Positions 755 to 13,256 of a DNA stretch of 64,000 bases are shown piece after piece. A program made the position numbers and the translations under genes. Positions within the stretch are counted from its first letter, which is position 1, and each line of letters opens with the position of its first letter. Under the pieces are notes generated by a model, which saw only the letters and a list, made by a program, of their open reading frames with translations, made no database searches and was not told where the DNA came from. The DNA lies in contig NW_001865062.1 in NCBI RefSeq assembly GCF_000002865.3, positions 177,542 to 241,541 on the forward strand. Reading direction: 5' to 3'. This stretch comes from Monosiga brevicollis MX1 (lineage: Eukaryota; Opisthokonta; Choanoflagellata; Craspedida; Salpingoecidae).

Positions 755-3003
755 ATGACTGAGTCCGCTACAGGTGTCTTGAATCGTGCGATCACGGCAA
801 TGGCAACCATCGAAGTACGGCTCAAGGAGAAAAGCATCGAGGATGCAAAGCTCTACTGGGTGCAGATGCAGCAGAAACGACCTTGGAAGCCCGAGAACCG
901 AATGCCTCCCATTCCCGGCATCAGCATTAGCTACCTCAGTGGCCAAGATCAGGCCGAGACCATTGTAAAAATTGGCACCGTCCAGGTGAACATCTCCGGC
1001 GAGCGCGACCACAATTGGGAGGACGCCTGGACCCGAGCATTGACGATTGGCGGCGCAGTTCACTTGCTGATTGTAGGCGACGCAGGCGGCGCAGTTCACT
1101 TGCTGATTGTAGGCGACGCAGGCGGCTTGGACGAACACCTTGTCAACGATGTGCTTATCGTTGCCGGCCAGGCCGGCCTTGCATACGTTGATGTAAAAGC
1201 TCTTATCGAGGCATGGCCAAGCGACAGCCACGCAATAGCCTTTACACAGCAGCCGAACCAGTTCATCTTGGCGCTTCCTTCCACGGCCGACGATATTAAC
1301 AGTATTCTGCGTCACAGTGGCGAAACTTTTATTTGTGAAAGTCACATCTATTACAGCGGCCACGGTGACACGGATGGCTCCTGGGTACTACCTGACGGTG
1401 ATCTGTACACAGGCGAGGATTTTGCATCGTGTGTGAAGACATGTCCTTCAGCGGCGATGTTCGGATGAATCTCCACCTCAACTGCTGCTTTGCCGCACGC
1501 TTTGTGGGGCTTGCCTTTTCCCACCAGACCACTCAGGCTGAGGATGCGCTGTCCCCGGCGCGTGAGGTCGACGCAAACCCGGCGCTTGGTCGCCTCGCCG
1601 CTTTTTTATCTATTACTCAAGAAATGCCTCTTGAAGAAGTCAAAGATAAGATGGAGAGCTGTCTGTCTGACCCGAGCAATTCGTTCAACAGTGCTTTGAC
1701 AAAAAGCCTTGTGCAACTCATCCAAACAGAACATCGCGCGTTTCCTGATTTGAAGGTGGAGACGCAGGTTGGCACTGCAATGCTGCACATGGTGCCGTAC
1801 TCATTCGGCTGGCTGGATGCCTCCGGGGCCTTTTTTGACCTCTACAACCTTCAAGACAAAGTTGCCAGTATCAAGCCCAATGCTGCTTTCTTGCAGCGAG
1901 GTAAAACGCCAACCGCCATGACTCGCGAAGCGGTCGAGAGCAAGCAACTGCACAAGGCCAAAGCACTGGAGATTTACATCTTTGGCGCTGGTCGTGGTGA
2001 AAGCTCTTTCGTGCGTTTTCCCGGCTGTAACCTCCTCATTGACGGCGGTATTCACAAGAACCCACTGCCCTGCTTTTGGCAACTCGTGCGGCGCCTACCA
2101 TCTGATGAGCAATTGGATCTCGTTGTATGTACCCATTACGACAACGACCACCTGAACGGCCTGCAGCGGCTGCTGGACGAGTGCAAGAAGAACAAGGACC
2201 TGATTGGCATTGGTCATTTGTACACCATGAAGCCTCCAACAAAAAGTAAAAGTAAAAAAGTTGGTCGATCGAAGTCAACTGGCTCCAAGCTCTGGGTCAG
2301 TGCTGTCCATCTTCTCGGTGAGGACAAAGTGCATAATCTTTGCATTGATCGTAAGGTCTTCTACCCACCCGAACCCGCAGACTCCAAGCTCAAGCTGGAG
2401 GTACAAATGCTCAGCCCACCCGACGAAGCAACCCTTACGAAGGCGACTGAGCTCATGGATGCCGTCGCACGCTCTGCCAGCCCCCCCAACAAGGCCTCTG
2501 CCTCACTGTTGGTCACGGCAACGTGGGGCGATGTGAAACGTCGGGCACTCTTCACTGGTGACGCGCCGAGCCCTTCCGTGGTGGCTGGCCTTAGAGAGGC
2601 GACGAATATTCAAAAGGACAAGATCCCACTGGTTTACGCCGATGCCCCACACCACGGGTCGATGCTCGAGCAGCCGAATGCATTATTTGAGGCCATCGAT
2701 CCAGAAGTTTTTGCAGTCAGTACAGACGGCACCGGCGGACACGGTCATCCCGACCAGACTTTCCTGGACGAGATGAGCGGGATTAAAGAGAAGGCGTGCT
2801 GGTTTAACTACACATCTCATGCCCTTCCGGGAACACGCCGTGCCGGAACCTCAGGCACGCGCCAGAACGCAGTGCAGTCCACCTTCCCCAATGCAAACTA
2901 CATTGACAATCAGGCCAGGGAGATTGCCACAGCGGCCTTGCGTGTCATCATTACAAAGGACTTGAACGTATCCCATAGAGTCAACGCGGATGGTACCGAG
3001 TAG
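755..3003 (+). CDS. Caspase-like (C14) domain fused to a ComEC-type metallo-beta-lactamase domain; frame break inside
   Basis: Two overlapping ORFs (755-1468 and 1429-3003) read as one protein. The first ends in a caspase p20-like region with the His motif YYSGHGD. The second begins with the matching Cys strand, NLHLNCCFAARF (CC codons at 1483-1488), so the caspase fold is split between frames. A linker of about 150 residues follows. Next comes a metallo-beta-lactamase domain resembling ComEC/Rec2: THYDNDHLNG at residue 235 of the second ORF, FTGD near 375 and DAPHHGS near 405. The two halves need a -1 shift between about 1402 and 1465. A 23-nt GT..AG stretch (1429-1451) would restore frame but is too short for a normal intron, so a sequencing indel is more likely. 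A 36-bp in-frame tandem duplication (about 1051-1122) repeats 12 residues before the His motif. The long single exon is unlike the neighbours. Domain calls are by motif; function is inferred as a proteolytic/hydrolytic effector. Confidence 0.72.
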
Positions 3004-3478
3004 CAAGATCAACTTTAAGAAAAACTCAGACTTCTCTCTCCTCTCTCTCTCTCAAACTCTCTCAAACTCTCAAACTCTCAAAGAAACTCTCTCAAACTCT
3101 CTCTCTCTTCTTGTCTTGAAAAAAACACTGGATCCTCAATGTCACTGTCAATTTTGACAACAAAAATACTAAAGAAACACGCTGGGCAACAGCTGCACTG
3201 TGCCAGACCCATGATCTCACAGGCAGGGTTGATTATGGAGCAATCGATCAGAGTAATACTCCAACGACAAGAACGAGCACGCAAAGTCGGACACTCGTGT
3301 TGCCTCTAGGAGGTCCAACAACACAGATACACTCAACACGCACGCGTCAACCCAATGTCTGGAAGCAGAGGGCGCAAGTCGGCCACATTCCAAAGGCCGC
3401 TCCGTGTTAGAGCAACAACGGTGGAAAAGAGACCAGATTAAAAACCATCAGAAACAGCAAAAGCAAGAACGCCCAAGT
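3004..3478. other. Convergent intergenic region with CTCTCAAAC repeats
   Basis: This lies between two convergent stop codons. At about 3035-3112 the plus strand repeats CTCTCAAAC-type words, the complement of the GTTTGAGAG punctuation seen in other GA tracts of the window. No coding sequence is supported. Confidence 0.6.
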
Positions 3479-6300
3479 TTAGGCGCTGGTGCTCAGACCA
3501 CCTGGCGCCCGACCCAAATCTTGCTTGAGCGACAGATCCTTCAAATCAAACCCCAGTTCCTCGATGGGCAACCCAGCCTCATTGAGCTTGACCTTGACGG
3601 CCGACACTGTCTCATTGTGCATCTTGGCGACCCGCGCCAGCTCAAACTGCAACGACTTGATCATGGCGTTCTTCGACTCCATGATGTCCTAATGATTGAG
3701 TCACATCAACATTTGTAAGCCCTTGCTTGACCATGCACAAGGCACAAGCCCATGCAAAACATCAAAACTTTGAGGAAGCATAAGCCCAGGCCAAAGCCGA
3801 AGGACAAGAGACAAACCTCCAGTCGCTGAGTTACCACGGCTACAGCTGTGGGATCGAGGCTGCTTGATGCCAACACCTCGTTAAGTTGTGCCTCCTGCTC
3901 ACCCGCATGCATTCAGCCACAAAGATTGAGAACCGAAGCGGGATGACAACGCAAAAGCCCCATTCAACGAGCGCGTGGCACATGATCCGCACCTTGGTCT
4001 CCAATTCGGCATGAAGAGTCTCCAACTTCTTCTCCAGGAGCAGATTCTTGAAGCCAGTTTTCTGCTGCACTTCGTAGATGGAGCGCACAAAGCGATCGTA
4101 CAGATCGTCGCGTTCCGTCTCGACCGTCTGAAAGCGCTGGCGCAGCACCTCGTTCTCCCAAGAAAGCTGCTTCAGCTCATCCTCCTTGAGCTTGAGCTGC
4201 ACCTTGGCAGAGCGCAAGGCTTCGCGGTCGTGTTCGAGCTTCTCGAGTGACTTGGTAAGCTCGACCACTCGCGCCTCGGCTGCCTTCAATGGCTCAATCA
4301 AGCGACGATTCTCTGACACCAGCTCTGCCATGAGCTTTTCCGTGCGCTGCTCCTTGGTGCGCATACCCTCAACCTGATTTGCACAGATTCAAGGTGAGAA
4401 AAGGCGACGATGCGTGCATGATTTGTGCAACCTGATCGCGCGTACAGCTACGACATGATAGCTAGACTGTATTTGTTGGACCGCAGAGGTCAACGCGCGT
4501 GAATGCCGGGCAACAAACCTGCTCCTTAAGAGAATTGATGAGGGCGAGGTTATTGAGGGTAATATCATTGTAGTAATTTTTAATGTCACCAAAGGCTTGC
4601 TCATGTTGGCGCATGAGTGCAGTAATCTGCAGATTCTTGCGCTCCTCAATCTCGTGCACCTCCACACGGCGCTGCAGGTCGAGGTCACGGCGCAAATGAT
4701 CTAGCTGCTGCTCGTATTTGCGCCGGATGTCCTGTGCTTGCTGTCGCATCTGATCATAGAGCTGGGTTTTATCACGATCATGGTCCAATCGTTGATGTTG
4801 TGATGAACGGTGCTGATTGATCTGCAGCTCCTTCAGCTCCACCTAAGATTAGGCACCAAAGCGCACACACAGACTTGGTCAGATTTCATCAGCCGTTAAC
4901 AGTCCCGACTCTCACAGCATGCACTGCTCGTCCTCTGCCCCATTCTCTGCCCAAACTGTATGGGAGAGCAGCAGCAGCAATAACGATAAAAAAAAAAAAA
5001 CAGCAGCACGTCCAAACCAGAAGGGAGGCGAGAAACAGGAACGTTGGGGAACAGGCAAATCAAAAGTGAGAGCTGATATGAAATGTTCGAATAACTCACG
5101 CGCAAAGAACGCTTTTCATTGCGCAGGCCGGCTGCTTCCTCCCGCAACTCGTCTTGCACCAGCTTCTTGGCGAGCGCAGCTGGCAGGTGGGAGACAGGCG
5201 AGATGAGGTCACGGCACTGCAAGAAAAGAAAAAAAAAAAGCAGACAAGGGCTGCAAACGCGTTGAGCAGGACGGACCTTCTGTCCGTAGCTCTGCGATTT
5301 GGTTCTGGTGCTCATATAACAGATGCTTCACCTTTTGCTTGTAGACCTGTAGGTGTGTCAATCGCGAAAGGTCATGTCAATGGCGGCATCTCAGAAAATG
5401 TGGGAAAAGGCGGGTGGGTGAATTACCTTGATCTCCACGGCATGCTTTTCCTCGGCTTCCTCAAGCTCACGATCCTTGTTCCGCATTTCTGCGCGGGCTT
5501 CGGCCAATTGCTTCTTGGTAATTTCCCAGAACGTGTTGATCTTGTCGCGTTCGAGCTGAAAATAGTTGCGCTCCTCGCGCTCCTTATTCACCTCTTCGCG
5601 TAGTCGAATGATGGTGGCTTGCATCTACACCAAACGAAATGAACCCAAATGGAAGCCATTGCAGAGCCCAAGAATCATTGATTCTCAGTGAGCCTGAGCT
5701 GGTCATGCAAATCCAACCCACTTGCGGACGAGCAAGCATGTACACTGGCCCTGTCCAGCGCCAAGCCCGCTAAAGGCTCTTTGAGCTGGTGACCGCGCAT
5801 GTTGCGGGTCCCAGCGCCAGCATCTCGATGAAGGTATGAGTTGGTTGCGAGCTGGGCATGCTCACCTCGTCCGGGGAGAGCCCTTGGAGATCATCTTGAT
5901 CCCCAGCGCCCGCAGCATCATTGGCGGCAGGCTGCTTGGCCTTGCCTGACTTCTTCTTCTTGGCCTAAACAAGAGGCGCCGGGGCAATGAGCCTTGATCC
6001 AGCGCAAATGCGAGACAAGCAGCCAATCATGCAGCCATGACCATGCAGGGGTCTGTTATTACAAATGACCAGTTGGCACGACCAAAAGACATGGGGCTCG
6101 AACCCCCGGCGGCAGCCCAAGCACGCGCTGACAAGCACAACGGCGACACCAACAAGGCCACTCGAAAAAAAAGAAAGAAAAGCGGGAAACAACTGCATTC
6201 AACCAAGCGGCTCCCGGACGCCGGGCGGTGAAGCCAGACCAGAGAGCGTATTCCCTCTAAGCCAGCCCTCGTCGCCGGCAGCAGCAGCAGCGCTCACCAT
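3479..6300 (-). CDS. GAS8: Dynein regulatory complex subunit 4 (GAS8/trypanin)
   Basis: GAS8/DRC4 is a coiled-coil subunit of the nexin-dynein regulatory complex that controls flagellar beating in the axoneme. Nine coding exons are phase-consistent: 6300-6298 (ATG only), 5964-5866, 5624-5427, 5346-5277, 5179-5100, 4842-4519, 4373-3993, 3894-3817 and 3688-3479. They give 480 aa, against about 478 in human. Diagnostic stretches include [14 protein letters not shown] with FWEITKKQL near the N-terminus, [20 protein letters not shown] in the middle, and [16 protein letters not shown] with [12 protein letters not shown] near the C-terminus. The protein is almost wholly heptad-like, with a lysine-rich start (MAKKKKSGK). 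The start codon is the last three bases of its exon, directly followed by GTGAGC. The head-to-head neighbour is NTF2, across a CT tract. Family identity is very secure; the first exon is the least certain. Confidence 0.95.
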
Positions 6301-8415: not shown

Positions 8416-11400
8416 TTAGCCAATCGAGAGGGTCGATGTTGGTGCAGCATTGAGGCAGAGAGACACCATGTCAATGGCGTAGCAGGCCCCTTGGCCGGTG
8501 AAGCTAAAGCCGAAGCGCACGGGCTCACCATTCATGCTAGCGGGGGGGATAAAGTCAAGGTAAAACTGATCAAAGCTGTCGACCGGGATGCTGCCGCTGG
8601 GGATCTCGGCTGAGGCAGCCAAGGTGTTGTTATCAAAGCGGAAGTCAAGAGACACAGAGCAGTTGTACTCCTGGAAGCGCGAAGCTCCAACATAAGCGCT
8701 GAGGGTGTATTCCATCGTTGAATCGTAGGTAATGGAATCGTCTTGCCAGACTCCGTACGCGGCGTCTTGGACATCAAACACGTACAAGTACTGGCTGCCA
8801 AACGGCGTGGTCTCGGGACCCAGCTCTGAGCCCTCTTCAAGGATGCGAACCGACGCAGAATCGGTGGAAAAGTTCCAACCAGCAGTCATCAAGGGGTAAA
8901 CTGCCTCATAGGTCACATCATAGTCCTCAAAGCTGGGATCAACGACGCGAGCGCAGTTGGAGTCATCAAGCGCGTTGGTCGTGGTTGGAATGGACGTGGT
9001 GGCATCACCATAGACGCAGACGGCAACATTGTCCACACCCGGTGAGAGACCGGCACCCAAGAAGGAGATGGCAATAGTGATATCAGTACCAATGTAACTG
9101 GCCGAGGCAGGCGTCTTGAAGTACAGGGTGACGTGCTCGCCGGTGACAGGGATGCCCTCACGCGACCAAGAGTGCACTGCAATAGTGACGTTGTTGGCAT
9201 CACGGAACTCGAGCGAAACGATGCTGCTGCAAGACACGCATGATGTGCGGTACAAGTCTGCCTCGAGCTTGTAGAGAGTATTGGCGGCATACTGATCGGC
9301 GAGCACCTGCTGGACACCATTGCCGTCGTTGACTGATTCGAACAAAACCAGATACTGGGTGGGGGTACCAGTGGGAGCGTTGGAGTAGCTCTCATCCGCA
9401 ATAAAGAATGGCAAGCTGTTATTGAAGTTCCAAACTCCGGGCACAAATTCAGTCTCGCCACCAACTACAGTCGTCGCCTCGAAATCATTGTCACTGACGC
9501 TGATCGGTGAGCAGTACCTGGACAAGGCGAAAGAAAGGAAGTAAGAGTCGTGGCGTTGTGATTGTCAGCTGAAAACCACCAAGCACAAGCACAATTTATG
9601 TCAAGAACATACCCAGTAAGAGTGGTGGTGCTGGTCGTGGTGGTGCTGGTCGTGCTAGTTGTGGTTGTGGTGAAAAAGCCTGGCTGGTTATCGCGGCAGA
9701 CTCGGACGTTGTCGAGCGCTGGAGAAGGTCCCGTACCAGTCAGTGTCACACCAATGCGAACACGCTGCAGCAAGTAGGCCGCGTTGGAAGGAACCGTAAA
9801 CTCCAATGAGTACTCGGTGAAGGTAGTCGTCAAAATGTCGGTCAGCGCGTTGGAAGCCAACACATTGTCGTCTTGATCGCGGAACTCCAGGGTCGGGTTG
9901 CTGTTGTACGTCACGTTGTCAGAGCCAGCGATGGACACGTAGAAGGTGATGGTTTCATCGGGGCGGTAGATGATGTCCAGATCCTGCCAGATGCCTGCAG
10001 TCGAGCTGGCAGAGCGGAAGGCATACGCGTACTGGTCGCCATAGGGAGTCGAAGCGGGACCCACGGCACCAGGTGCCAGGACGACGCGGAAGGATGACTG
10101 GCTATCCTGTGTCCAAGATGAAGACGACAGAAGGACCTCGCCACTCTCCACATAAACATCCTCAAAGCTGTGGTCGCCGACAGCGACGCACTCGTCACCA
10201 GCGGTCGTTGTGGCCGCCGAAGTCGTGCTTGGGGGTGCGGTGGTCGTGGTTACGAAGCTGTCAGTGCTCAGACAGATGAAACCAACAGCGGGGCTGAAGC
10301 CCGACCCACCAAAGCGAATACCAACACGCACATCCTCACCAATGAGGCAGTTATCGGGACGGCAGGGGAACTCCAGACTGACGCTCATGACTTCGTTGCT
10401 GGTGGTGAAAGCTGAGTAGGGAATCGTCTTGGAAGCCACAACTGTGTTGTCACCGGTGCGAAGCTCGATGGATACCAAGCTGGGCTGCTTGTCAAAGGTG
10501 CCAACGCCAACGATAGCGGAAACTTGGTAAAGAGTGTAGGCTTCATACGACAAAGGAGAATCTTGCCAGATGCCCTCACCCGTGGTGTTGCTCTCAAGAG
10601 TATACACAAACTGTGAGCCATTGACGTTTGTGGTGGAGAAGTAGTCACTAGGAGTTTCCGTCGTGCCAATCTTGATGTTTGAGTCCACCGTCCAGAATGT
10701 GGGGCAGGTAAAGTCACCATCAGATGAAACGTAATCATACTCAAAGCTGCTATCATTCAAGTACTGGCACACTTCCAGGAGAGCGGTGCTGGTCGAAGAC
10801 GTGGAAGAAGTCGATGATGTTGAGGATGTCGAGGATGTTGTGGAGGTAGAGGAGGTGGACGAGGTCGATGAGGTTGACGAAGTTGAAGACGTGGATGAGG
10901 TGGATGAGGTGGACGACGTGGACGAGGTGGAACTGGTCGATGAGGTTGAAGAAGTAGAGGTGGTCGATGAGGTTGACGAAGTTGACGACGTCGATGAGGT
11001 GGAAGTAGTGGACGACGTCGATGAGGTTGAGGTGGTGGACGAGGTCGATGAGGTTGATGAAGTGGACGACGTGGATGAGGTCGATGAAGTTGATGAGGTC
11101 GATGAGGTGGAAGTGGTGGACGAGGTCGATGAGGTTGATGAAGTTGACGACGTGGATGAGGTTGAGGTGGTGGACGAGGTCGATGAGGTGGAAGTGGTGG
11201 ACGAGGTCGATGAGGTGGAAGTGGTGGACGAGGTCGATGAGGTTGATGAGGTGGACGAAGTCGACGACGTCGATGAAGTTGACGATGTCGATGAGGTTGA
11301 GGTGGTGGACGACGTGGAGGTTGTCGATGAGGTGGACGAGGTAGACGAAGTCGACGACGTCGATGAAGTTGACGACGTCGATGAGGTGGAAGTGGTGGAC

Positions 11401-13256
11401 GACGTGGAGGTTGTCGATGAGGTAGACGAGGTAGACGAAGTCGACGACGTCGATGAGGTGGAAGTGGTCGACGAGGTGGACGACGTGGAAGTGGTCGACG
11501 AGGTGGACGACGTGGAAGTGGTCGACGAGGTGGACGACGTGGAAGTGGTCGACGAGGTGGACGACGTGGACGATGTGGACGACGTGGACGACGTCGACGA
11601 CGTGGACGAAGTCGACGAGGTGGACGAGGTGGAGGTCGTCGACGAGGTGGACGAGGTGGAGGTCGTCGACGAGGTGGACGAGGTGGACGAGGTGGTAGAA
11701 GTTGACGAAGTAGAGGAGGTGGAGGAGGTGGAGAAGGAGCAAACTTCCTCAATGGGTTGCTCGCAAACAAATGCACGATCATTGCTGCACACAGCATCAT
11801 TCCAGCTGCCTTCAAAGCTGGGGTTGGGATGGCCCATTTGCAAGCACTGCTCGGTGGCTCCATTGTTGGGCTCGTTGGCATTCCAAGGCGTGTATGTTAC
11901 AAGAGTACCGTCATTCCAGTAAAAAGGACCGCCAGTGGTGTTACGCTCGCCACCCAGCCAGGTCAGAACACCAGGCATCAAGTTGTATACAAACATATTC
12001 TCGGTTTCATCAGCGATGCGGACAAGCCGGGTGTTCGGAGAGATCGTCTGGCAGTAGGCATCGGCTTGAGCATGCGAAGCGATCAAGCTACCAAAGCTCT
12101 CGATCGATGAGTAGTACACCGAGTTGTTGAGCCAGTTATAACCCGGGCAGATATCCTCCGTGGTGCTGGGAGGGATCGTGGTGGTGGCTGGGATGGTGGT
12201 AGTCGATGGACCGGTTGTGGTGGTTGTGGTCGATGGGCAGACTTCCTCAATGCTGCGTTCGCAGACATACTCGCGGGCGAAGCTGCAACGAGCATCATTC
12301 CAGCTGCCAGGGAAACTTGGCTTAGGATGGCCCATTTGCAAGCAGTCTTGGAGTGCACCGTTATTGGGCTCGTTGGCGTTCCAGGCGGTGAAAGAAAGGG
12401 TGGTACCATCCGTCCAGTAGAAAGTGCCACCAGTCACGTTTCGGCTCGCACCAAGCCAAAGCCTGGTATCTGGAAGGAGAGAATAGACATAGTTGTTCTC
12501 AGCCATGTTTGTGACCTGAGCAAGATGGGTGGTTGGAGAAATGGTCTGGCAGGCAGCCGAGGCGGAGGCCCAATTGAGGGGGCCAGTCGTAAAGTCGGCA
12601 ACCGATGTGTAGTAGATGCTGCCGTTGTAGATATTGAGCTCCTCGCAAGGATTGGGAGTCGTTGTGGGGACTGTGGTGGTAGGGGCGTTGGTACTGCTGC
12701 TTCCGCCACATGAATCGTCGAGTTTTTGCTCACAGACAAAAAAACGGAGGTTAGAGCAAGGAGCATCATTCCAGGCAGCAGGTGTTGTCGAAGCTGGGTG
12801 ACCAATCTGTACACAGTTTTCGTTGCTACCAGCTGAGTTGGGCTCACCCTTCTTCCACAAGCAATTTACGCCAGGTGTGCAGCCGGCGTAATCGCCCAGC
12901 AGACCGGTGATGGAAACGCCATCGATGCTCTGAAAGGTGTTTGTCGACAGATTGCGCACATGACCAATCCAGCGCATGCTCTCCTGAACAGGCTCTAGGT
13001 TCCACAGGAAGTCATTCTCGGCCTTGCTGTCCACAATAGCCAAATCCGCACCGCTGCCGATTCCCTGGCAGAGCGTGCGTGCCTGTGCGTACGTGTATGT
13101 GCTGGTCGCGCTGAAAAAGGTCCGGGAGTAGTAATATTCGCTGTCACCAAACTTGACGCCACCGTTACACTGAGCGGAGACTGGGGTACCAAGCTGCAAT
13201 GTCAGGAGGGCGATGGCCGCCACGACAGCAAAGCTAGAGGGCCCGGTGCGCAGCAT
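8416..13256 (-). CDS. Secreted multi-domain protein: three C-type lectin domains, Ser/Thr mucin stalk, four jelly-roll-like repeats
   Basis: Two exons (13256-9613 and 9517-8416; 95-bp GT-AG intron, phase 2) encode 1,581 aa. Residues 1-28 are a signal peptide ending VSA. Three C-type lectin-like domains follow (about 31-180, 205-345, 370-505). Each has an EPN motif (GEPN, NEPN, NEPN) and a WND triplet, the Ca2+ site of mannose-type C-type lectins, plus paired Cys. Residues of about 507-829 are an almost pure STSSTSS/TTS mucin-like stalk. Four related modules of about 150 residues come next. Each starts with a Cys and a SFED/SFEY/DFEA-like motif, carries GIWQD or a similar motif in the middle and ends with a Cys, suggesting galactose-binding-like jelly rolls (inferred). 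No C-terminal membrane anchor is seen, so the protein is probably secreted to the collar, theca or matrix. N-glycosylation sequons are frequent. The role, adhesion or bacterial-glycan capture, is inferred. Confidence 0.9.
10770..11736 (-). repeat. Coding minisatellite for the STSS stalk
   Basis: About 965 bp of nine-base-like TCN-ACN-TCN units lie within the lectin exon. Units vary at synonymous positions, except for a stretch at about 11460-11570 where a 27-bp unit is repeated nearly perfectly four times, pointing to recent expansion. The opposite strand and other frames stay open (Val-Asp-Glu and His-Leu-Val repeats); these are artefacts of the repeat. Confidence 0.9.

Follow-up and report, generated by a model that had tools for sequence, protein, structure and literature searches.

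A caspase-like and metallo-beta-lactamase domain pair in the choanoflagellate Monosiga brevicollis, a possible single-chain relative of bacterial protease-gated nucleases

The window analysed here, a 64,000-nucleotide stretch of the Monosiga brevicollis MX1 genome (contig NW_001865062.1, positions 177,542 to 241,541), contains at positions 755..3003 of its + strand a gene that may encode, or may until recently have encoded, a single-chain protease-nuclease of the choanoflagellate, activated by the cleavage of a gating loop (probability of about 0.45). The metallo-beta-lactamase (MBL) domain of the gene retains all the invariant metal ligands, and it is preceded by a domain with a His...Cys pair of the caspase or CHAT type. 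The motifs named in the initial annotation of the stretch are all present, on the + strand and in the order given there. The description of the gene as essentially one exon with one open frame does not hold: it is divided into two overlapping open reading frames (ORFs) in different frames, which no credible intron connects. ORF1 (755..1468, + strand, 237 amino acids) comprises the N-terminal region and the front half of the caspase-like domain, and holds IYYSGHGDTDGSWVLPDGD with the His motif. ORF2 (1429..3003, + strand, 524 amino acids) comprises the rear half of the caspase-like domain with LHLNCC, a linker, and the full MBL domain, and ends approximately 55 residues past the latter. All features of the gene described below are located on the + strand.

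The C-terminal domain (1954..2838) has the MBL fold and can be firmly assigned to the ComEC-type MBLs, within the defence pro-nuclease family that includes Avs1a, LmuA, and CanC. The proposal of a ComEC-type MBL of the kind found in bacterial conflict systems is thus borne out: the family match is beyond doubt, and 17 of the 18 columns that are invariant in 45 relatives are kept, metal ligands included, the exception being an isoleucine to leucine change at position 242. Invariant residues H236, D238, D240, H241, and G244 are part of the metal-ligand motif THYDNDHLNG (2131..2160), the metal-ligand aspartate D378 belongs to FTGD (2551..2562), and H408, H409, and S411 to the family HHGS motif within DAPHHGS (2641..2661). 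Two additional family signatures, STDGTGGHGHPD (2719..2754) and WFNY (2800..2811), contain the invariant residues S431 and P441, and N460, respectively. The region of gating loop 1 (2152..2415) is rich in lysines and has a length of 88 residues, close to the median of 87 in the 45 relatives; its TGSKL segment aligns with the QGEKL common among the 14 rows listed. Gating loop 2 is represented by a remnant of 23 residues (2419..2487), whereas the median in the relatives is 60. The score against the NCBIfam Avs1a model (NF041809), 84.4 bits, does not reach the curated cut-off of 420. The predicted model of ORF2 has an overall predicted local distance difference test (pLDDT) score of 65. Sequence searches of the M. 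brevicollis genome with each half of the protein, Avs1a, and MBL_MAP1B identified this place only.

The N-terminal half quite probably has a caspase-like fold, as judged from the motifs, their spacing, and their order. The candidate catalytic histidine is located in the strand and loop YYSGHGD (1349..1369) and the candidate catalytic cysteine in the strand LHLNCC (1471..1488), both recognized in the sequence and evaluated by motif statistics. The pattern used requires a hydrophobic strand, GHG, 25–70 residues, and then hydrophobic-x-hydrophobic-[ND]-x-C, and it was loosened by one position after the first version had missed the gene of the window; in the loosened form, the motif pair is reproduced by 1 of 200,000 shuffles. 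Of the 3,193 ORFs taken from the loci that were fetched, a set that is caspase-rich by design, 57 contain the same pattern. A caspase profile derived from CanA matches 48 of the 57, and the other nine, of which one is annotated as CHAT and the rest were judged by eye, show a CHAT-like GHG...LNAC arrangement. The distance between the His and Cys motifs is 42 residues, compared with 43–45 in the nine CHAT-like and 46–54 in the 48 caspase ORFs, and is thus one below the lowest of the 57. The order and spacing of the two motifs, found with the once-loosened pattern, fit a caspase or another clan CD protease. The spacing and the LN-C strand look weakly CHAT-like rather than C14-like, and the alignment to a CHAT profile spans the whole His-to-Cys stretch. 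Downstream of the cysteine, SNSFNSALTKSL resembles by eye the S-F-T-x-A-L segment of caspases; it is located 66 residues from the cysteine, compared with 41–58 in the 23 CanA proteins in which a looser pattern was found. The only Pfam-level match upstream of the MBL domain is SnoaL, with an E-value of 0.2, which is at chance level. Elsewhere in the same genome, two places, L001 and L002 (C19, C46), have Peptidase_C14 matches just over the cut-off.

The bacterial connection drawn in the initial annotation is supported by homologues in bacteria in which a caspase or CHAT protease adjoins, or is fused to, a related MBL. In 80 fetched genome loci with a canu-type MBL, a strong CanA-type caspase is encoded upstream on the + strand in 44, a CHAT-profile match occurs in 18 (two of which count only via proteins matched by the caspase profile as well), and neither partner is found in 24; the classes overlap. 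Ten of the CanA-type caspase ORFs are longer than 700 amino acids (L030-L038, L059) and nine of them extend as far as the MBL gene, which hints at CanA-CanB fusions. Two of seven long MBL ORFs scanned against Pfam, those of L093 (Aquabacterium, 2502-6080) and L100 (Methylococcaceae, 2811-6044), contain CHAT before the MBL in a single chain. The two ORFs, with start codons unchecked, have lengths of 1192 and 1077 amino acids and are 49% identical. Therefore, a clan CD protease fused before a related MBL exists in bacteria, apparently as a one-gene version of the protease-nuclease defence pair. The two chains share with the M. brevicollis protein a domain of the caspase fold class and an MBL, in one polypeptide and in the same order. 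They differ in being bacterial, in their long middle part, which has a weak TPR-S match in L093, and in that their CHAT domain is detected by Pfam, which finds none in the M. brevicollis protein.

A mechanism for a caspase-nuclease pair has been published for the antiphage loci called Canu (PMC12799240). The Canu system (CanABC) likewise combines a clan CD protease partner, which comes first, with an MBL that belongs to the same family of pro-nucleases. However, Canu consists of separate genes, includes CanB, and has two gating loops, whereas here there is one apparent chain with one full-length loop, CanB is not recognized, and no C14 profile matches. The MBL pro-nucleases of Avs1a, HamM, and Lamassu share with the window protein the MBL family, the motifs, and the length of gate 1, although the score for the Avs1a model stays below its cut-off, as given above. 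ComEC/Rec2 is a membrane channel with an MBL of its own and differs in having no protease. Other arrangements were seen among the fetched loci. A canu-like caspase and MBL locus (L067:2466-6065) belongs to a record titled Lokiarchaeota, which is a genome bin in which a binning error is possible, and L063:703-3135 has, by eye, the appearance of a CanB-CanC fusion. A further protease partner is represented by S8 peptidase genes that immediately precede a family MBL (L012:3146-6549, L118:2218-5041). In L042, L043, L045, L046, L056, and L014 a CHAT-like protease is encoded right after the MBL gene; together with L039, L040, and L049, these loci form a nine-row set with a Shimodaira-Hasegawa-like approximate likelihood ratio test (SH-aLRT) support of 100.

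The first part of the MBL domain appears from its sequence to be nearest to the MBL-like domain of the animal MAP1 proteins. A MAP1-like signature stretch (YIF..GRGES....GCNLLIDGG....CFWQLVRRL....THYDNDHLNG) occupies positions 1972..2178. MBL_MAP1B (PF25281) is the best Pfam family for the MBL, with 47.4 bits against a gathering cut-off of 37.6, over only 65 of 279 profile positions; with nine bacterial relatives it gives four weak matches (21.2, 20.1, 16.3, and 11.2 bits), and the other five are not listed. When the first 125 residues of the MBL stretch are compared with all sequences of the Protein Data Bank (PDB), MAP1S (9ijj_4b) ranks first with an E-value of 2.2e-6, followed by ComEC with 0.09. 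The link depends on the query, as only these 125 residues rank MAP1S first: the whole of ORF2 matches ComEC alone at E<=1 (best 0.03), with MAP1S not listed; a 46-row profile matches ComEC and other MBLs at E<=0.1 and not MAP1S; and MAP1S is absent among the matches listed in the Foldseek and VIA tables. In the PDB alignment, MAP1S reads THAGADSLPG where the window protein has THYDNDHLNG, so that most of the ligand motif is lost. The presence of an MBL in MAP1 proteins is already described (PMC11377751), and our literature searches turned up no paper linking this MBL to defence nucleases or caspases.

The alignment of the MBL to MAP1B scores 129, which is not equalled in any of 1,000 shuffles, and the best of 109 prokaryotic and viral rows reaches 96. 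MAP1B has the YIF..GRG.S....FW.L.R signature, of which MAP1S has a part. Two motifs, FWxL[VIL][RK] and G[RQ]G[DE]S, which were selected once the window protein and MAP1B had been inspected, are present in both and in 0 of the 109 rows; MAP1S in the PDB contains the former and not the latter. In a tree holding the MBL and MAP1B, both of which are long rows, their sister relationship is neither rejected nor shown (approximately unbiased (AU) test, p 0.32). The head of animal MAP1A/B/S consists of MAPB1_N and MBL_MAP1B, and the former directly precedes the latter. The MAP1 proteins add microtubule-binding parts. The claim that no described eukaryotic protein has a domain order like that of the window gene therefore has to be qualified, since MAPB1_N stands immediately in front of an MBL of related type, although no link between MAPB1_N and the caspase-like part could be established. 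The MAPB1_N profile (PF23415) has no match in the protein, nor in the genome, where the search lacked a positive control. By eye, LLVLTGQC...TGELILQSG...SLTLFCP of MAP1B resembles HIYYSGHG...DGSWVLPDG...NLHLNCC. Local alignments of MAPB1_N to the caspase-like part are equalled by 246 of 1,000 shuffles (619 of 1,000 with another matrix), a semi-global alignment by 151 of 2,000, and alignments with two profiles by 470 and 271 of 2,000, and the best-scoring local MAP1B match falls elsewhere, in a stretch immediately preceding the MBL. The idea that MAPB1_N is a degenerate caspase is supported by neither the alignments nor the profiles.

The two frames are open together only at about 1402..1468, which is the stretch of the change from ORF1 to ORF2. 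Three GT-AG pairs, 23, 41, and 47 bases long, are the only ones that restore the frame and keep both motifs. Each would cost the His-to-Cys spacing, which is 42 residues when read straight through, 8 to 16 residues and bring it far below the 43–45 and 46–54 of the relatives, and an intron joining the two ORFs was rejected. The frame change is either a small assembly error or a sign of a damaged gene, and the assembly may contain the caspase-like-MBL gene in a broken form. ORF1 also contains a perfect in-frame tandem duplication of 36 bases (1052..1123), which encodes the same 12 residues twice. Codon usage correlates with that of one host cadherin with r 0.84 and is uninformative since off-frames reach 0.81; it was dropped as proof of residence in the host genome.

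By analogy with published systems, the caspase-like half would be held inactive until it clusters on a danger or infection signal. The clustered caspase-like half would then cut gating loop 1, either within its own chain (in cis) or in one next to it (in trans), and the cut would open the MBL, which would degrade DNA and kill or arrest the cell. One gate may have shrunk because the protease and nuclease halves are tethered. On the animal side, the same family would have led to the ligand-less MBL of MAP1. The protease activity, cut site, nuclease activity, and trigger are all inferred from this analogy.

Several observations weigh against a working protease-nuclease. The N-terminal part matches no Pfam family, C14 and CHAT included, either in pieces or when read across the frames. 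A caspase profile built from 58 ORFs gives -1.5 bits, as good in 254 of 2,000 shuffles, and the CHAT profile 2.9 bits, as good in 8 of 2,000, while the AlphaFold model of ORF1 alone, calculated from a single sequence, has a pLDDT of 36 and an uninformative fold. The protein has no recognizable CanB-like, sensor, or NTPase part. In the MBL, only 8 columns are kept out of the 18 with a conservation of 90–99%, and with gate 2 mostly missing the two gating insertions are reduced to one. In the trees, the MBL is placed outside the caspase-associated clade (100/96; a set of 19 rows, with trypsin and Lamassu partners), a tentative position in view of an AU p of 0.352 and a very long branch. The first tree left out L029, which is shorter than 230 residues, the second left out six viral rows and 25 of the 45 canu rows, and the groups tested for placement were named after the tree had been seen. 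Finally, the frame breaks between the two halves, and the fused protein may not be made. Of the earlier claim of a C14 caspase, the caspase-like motif pair, its spacing, and its order stand, and the C14 part is weaker; a plain C14 label was rejected on account of the missing Pfam match and the shuffles that reach the caspase profile score.

The frame change and the perfect 36-base duplication within one 2.2 kb gene could both reflect decay, in which case an ancestral caspase-like-MBL gene would survive as a pseudogene or damaged allele that no longer makes one protein. This is rather unlikely, as 237 and 524 codons are otherwise open, the invariant MBL residues are kept with one exception, and a single assembly error could suffice for the frame change. 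The difference in frame would also be expected if ORF2 encoded an MBL protein with a short N-terminus of its own next to a separate or chance ORF1, and the upstream part indeed lacks a Pfam match and no close homologue with the same domain order was found. However, the His loop in ORF1 and the Cys strand in ORF2 are separated by nearly the CHAT-like distance, shuffling rarely reproduces the pair, and in many bacterial relatives a related MBL is preceded by clan CD proteases, which makes two unrelated features very unlikely. We consider it improbable that the MBL is a structural domain of the MAP1 type rather than an enzyme, and that the protein belongs to the MAP1 line as a scaffold or part of the cytoskeleton. 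The score above the MBL_MAP1B cut-off, MAP1S as the best PDB match of the first 125 residues, and the domain directly before the MBL in MAP1B favour such a protein, whereas the ligands mostly lost in MAP1S are kept here, the C-terminal half agrees with the nuclease family of bacteria, and MAPB1_N is not matched.

The MBL family is likely of bacterial descent, and a bacterial origin of the gene, at an undated time, is plausible. The transfer from bacteria suggested by the initial annotation is not shown, the MBL motifs common to animal MAP1 being absent from all 109 prokaryotic and viral relatives. Because of these shared motifs, a recent import is no more likely than an old holozoan gene, and the motifs suggest that the gene existed before the split between animals and choanoflagellates. 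Since no intron is seen, while the adjoining gene has introns, a recent horizontal transfer of a fused gene from food bacteria keeps some probability; fused CHAT-MBL genes are known in bacteria, and many transferred genes are reported in Monosiga (PMC4046809). According to the same paper, >80% of these genes contain introns, and they include a transferred metallo-beta-lactamase, XP_001747251, which may or may not be the present gene. The very long branch, the motifs shared with MAP1, and a G+C content of 0.54, the same as that of the window, speak against a recent transfer, as does the lack of any relative at E<=1e-8 when 395 and 398 genomes sampled from two phyla were searched, with no positive control and with a threshold more stringent than the 9.5e-7 that the best known genome reaches. 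On balance it appears unlikely. Searches of plasmids by tblastn gave no match for ORF1 and 29 records with 28–35% identity for ORF2, and a search of genome contigs with ORF2 alone found no close bacterial relative.

The next gene (window 3843-4842, - strand) encodes a Pfam GAS (growth-arrest specific microtubule-binding) domain over at least two open stretches and is presumably of the GAS8/DRC4 type. C-type lectin ORFs are present on both sides (window 9465-13256 and L005:6453-8081), and the genome, 39.5 Mb in size, contains at least 150 cadherin domain matches. The GAS-domain gene split over stretches, the C-type lectin ORFs, and the cadherin domains therefore identify the contig as eukaryotic. 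The region of L005 contains many Ser/Thr repeats.

In bacteria, protease-gated nucleases have only recently been described as a mechanism of antiviral defence. If the reading as a single-chain protease-nuclease is correct, a eukaryotic version whose nuclease site is intact, from a close protist relative of animals, would allow the spread of this mechanism into eukaryotes to be tested. It would also offer an origin for the enzyme-like head of MAP1 proteins. More speculatively, and with considerable doubt, the MAPB1_N and MBL_MAP1B head of MAP1 could be the dead descendant of a caspase-like-MBL suicide nuclease akin to the antiphage pro-nucleases of bacteria, and the M. brevicollis gene would be a relative of this head with the nuclease site intact. 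If so, an immune or cell-death enzyme would have been domesticated into a neuronal cytoskeletal protein.
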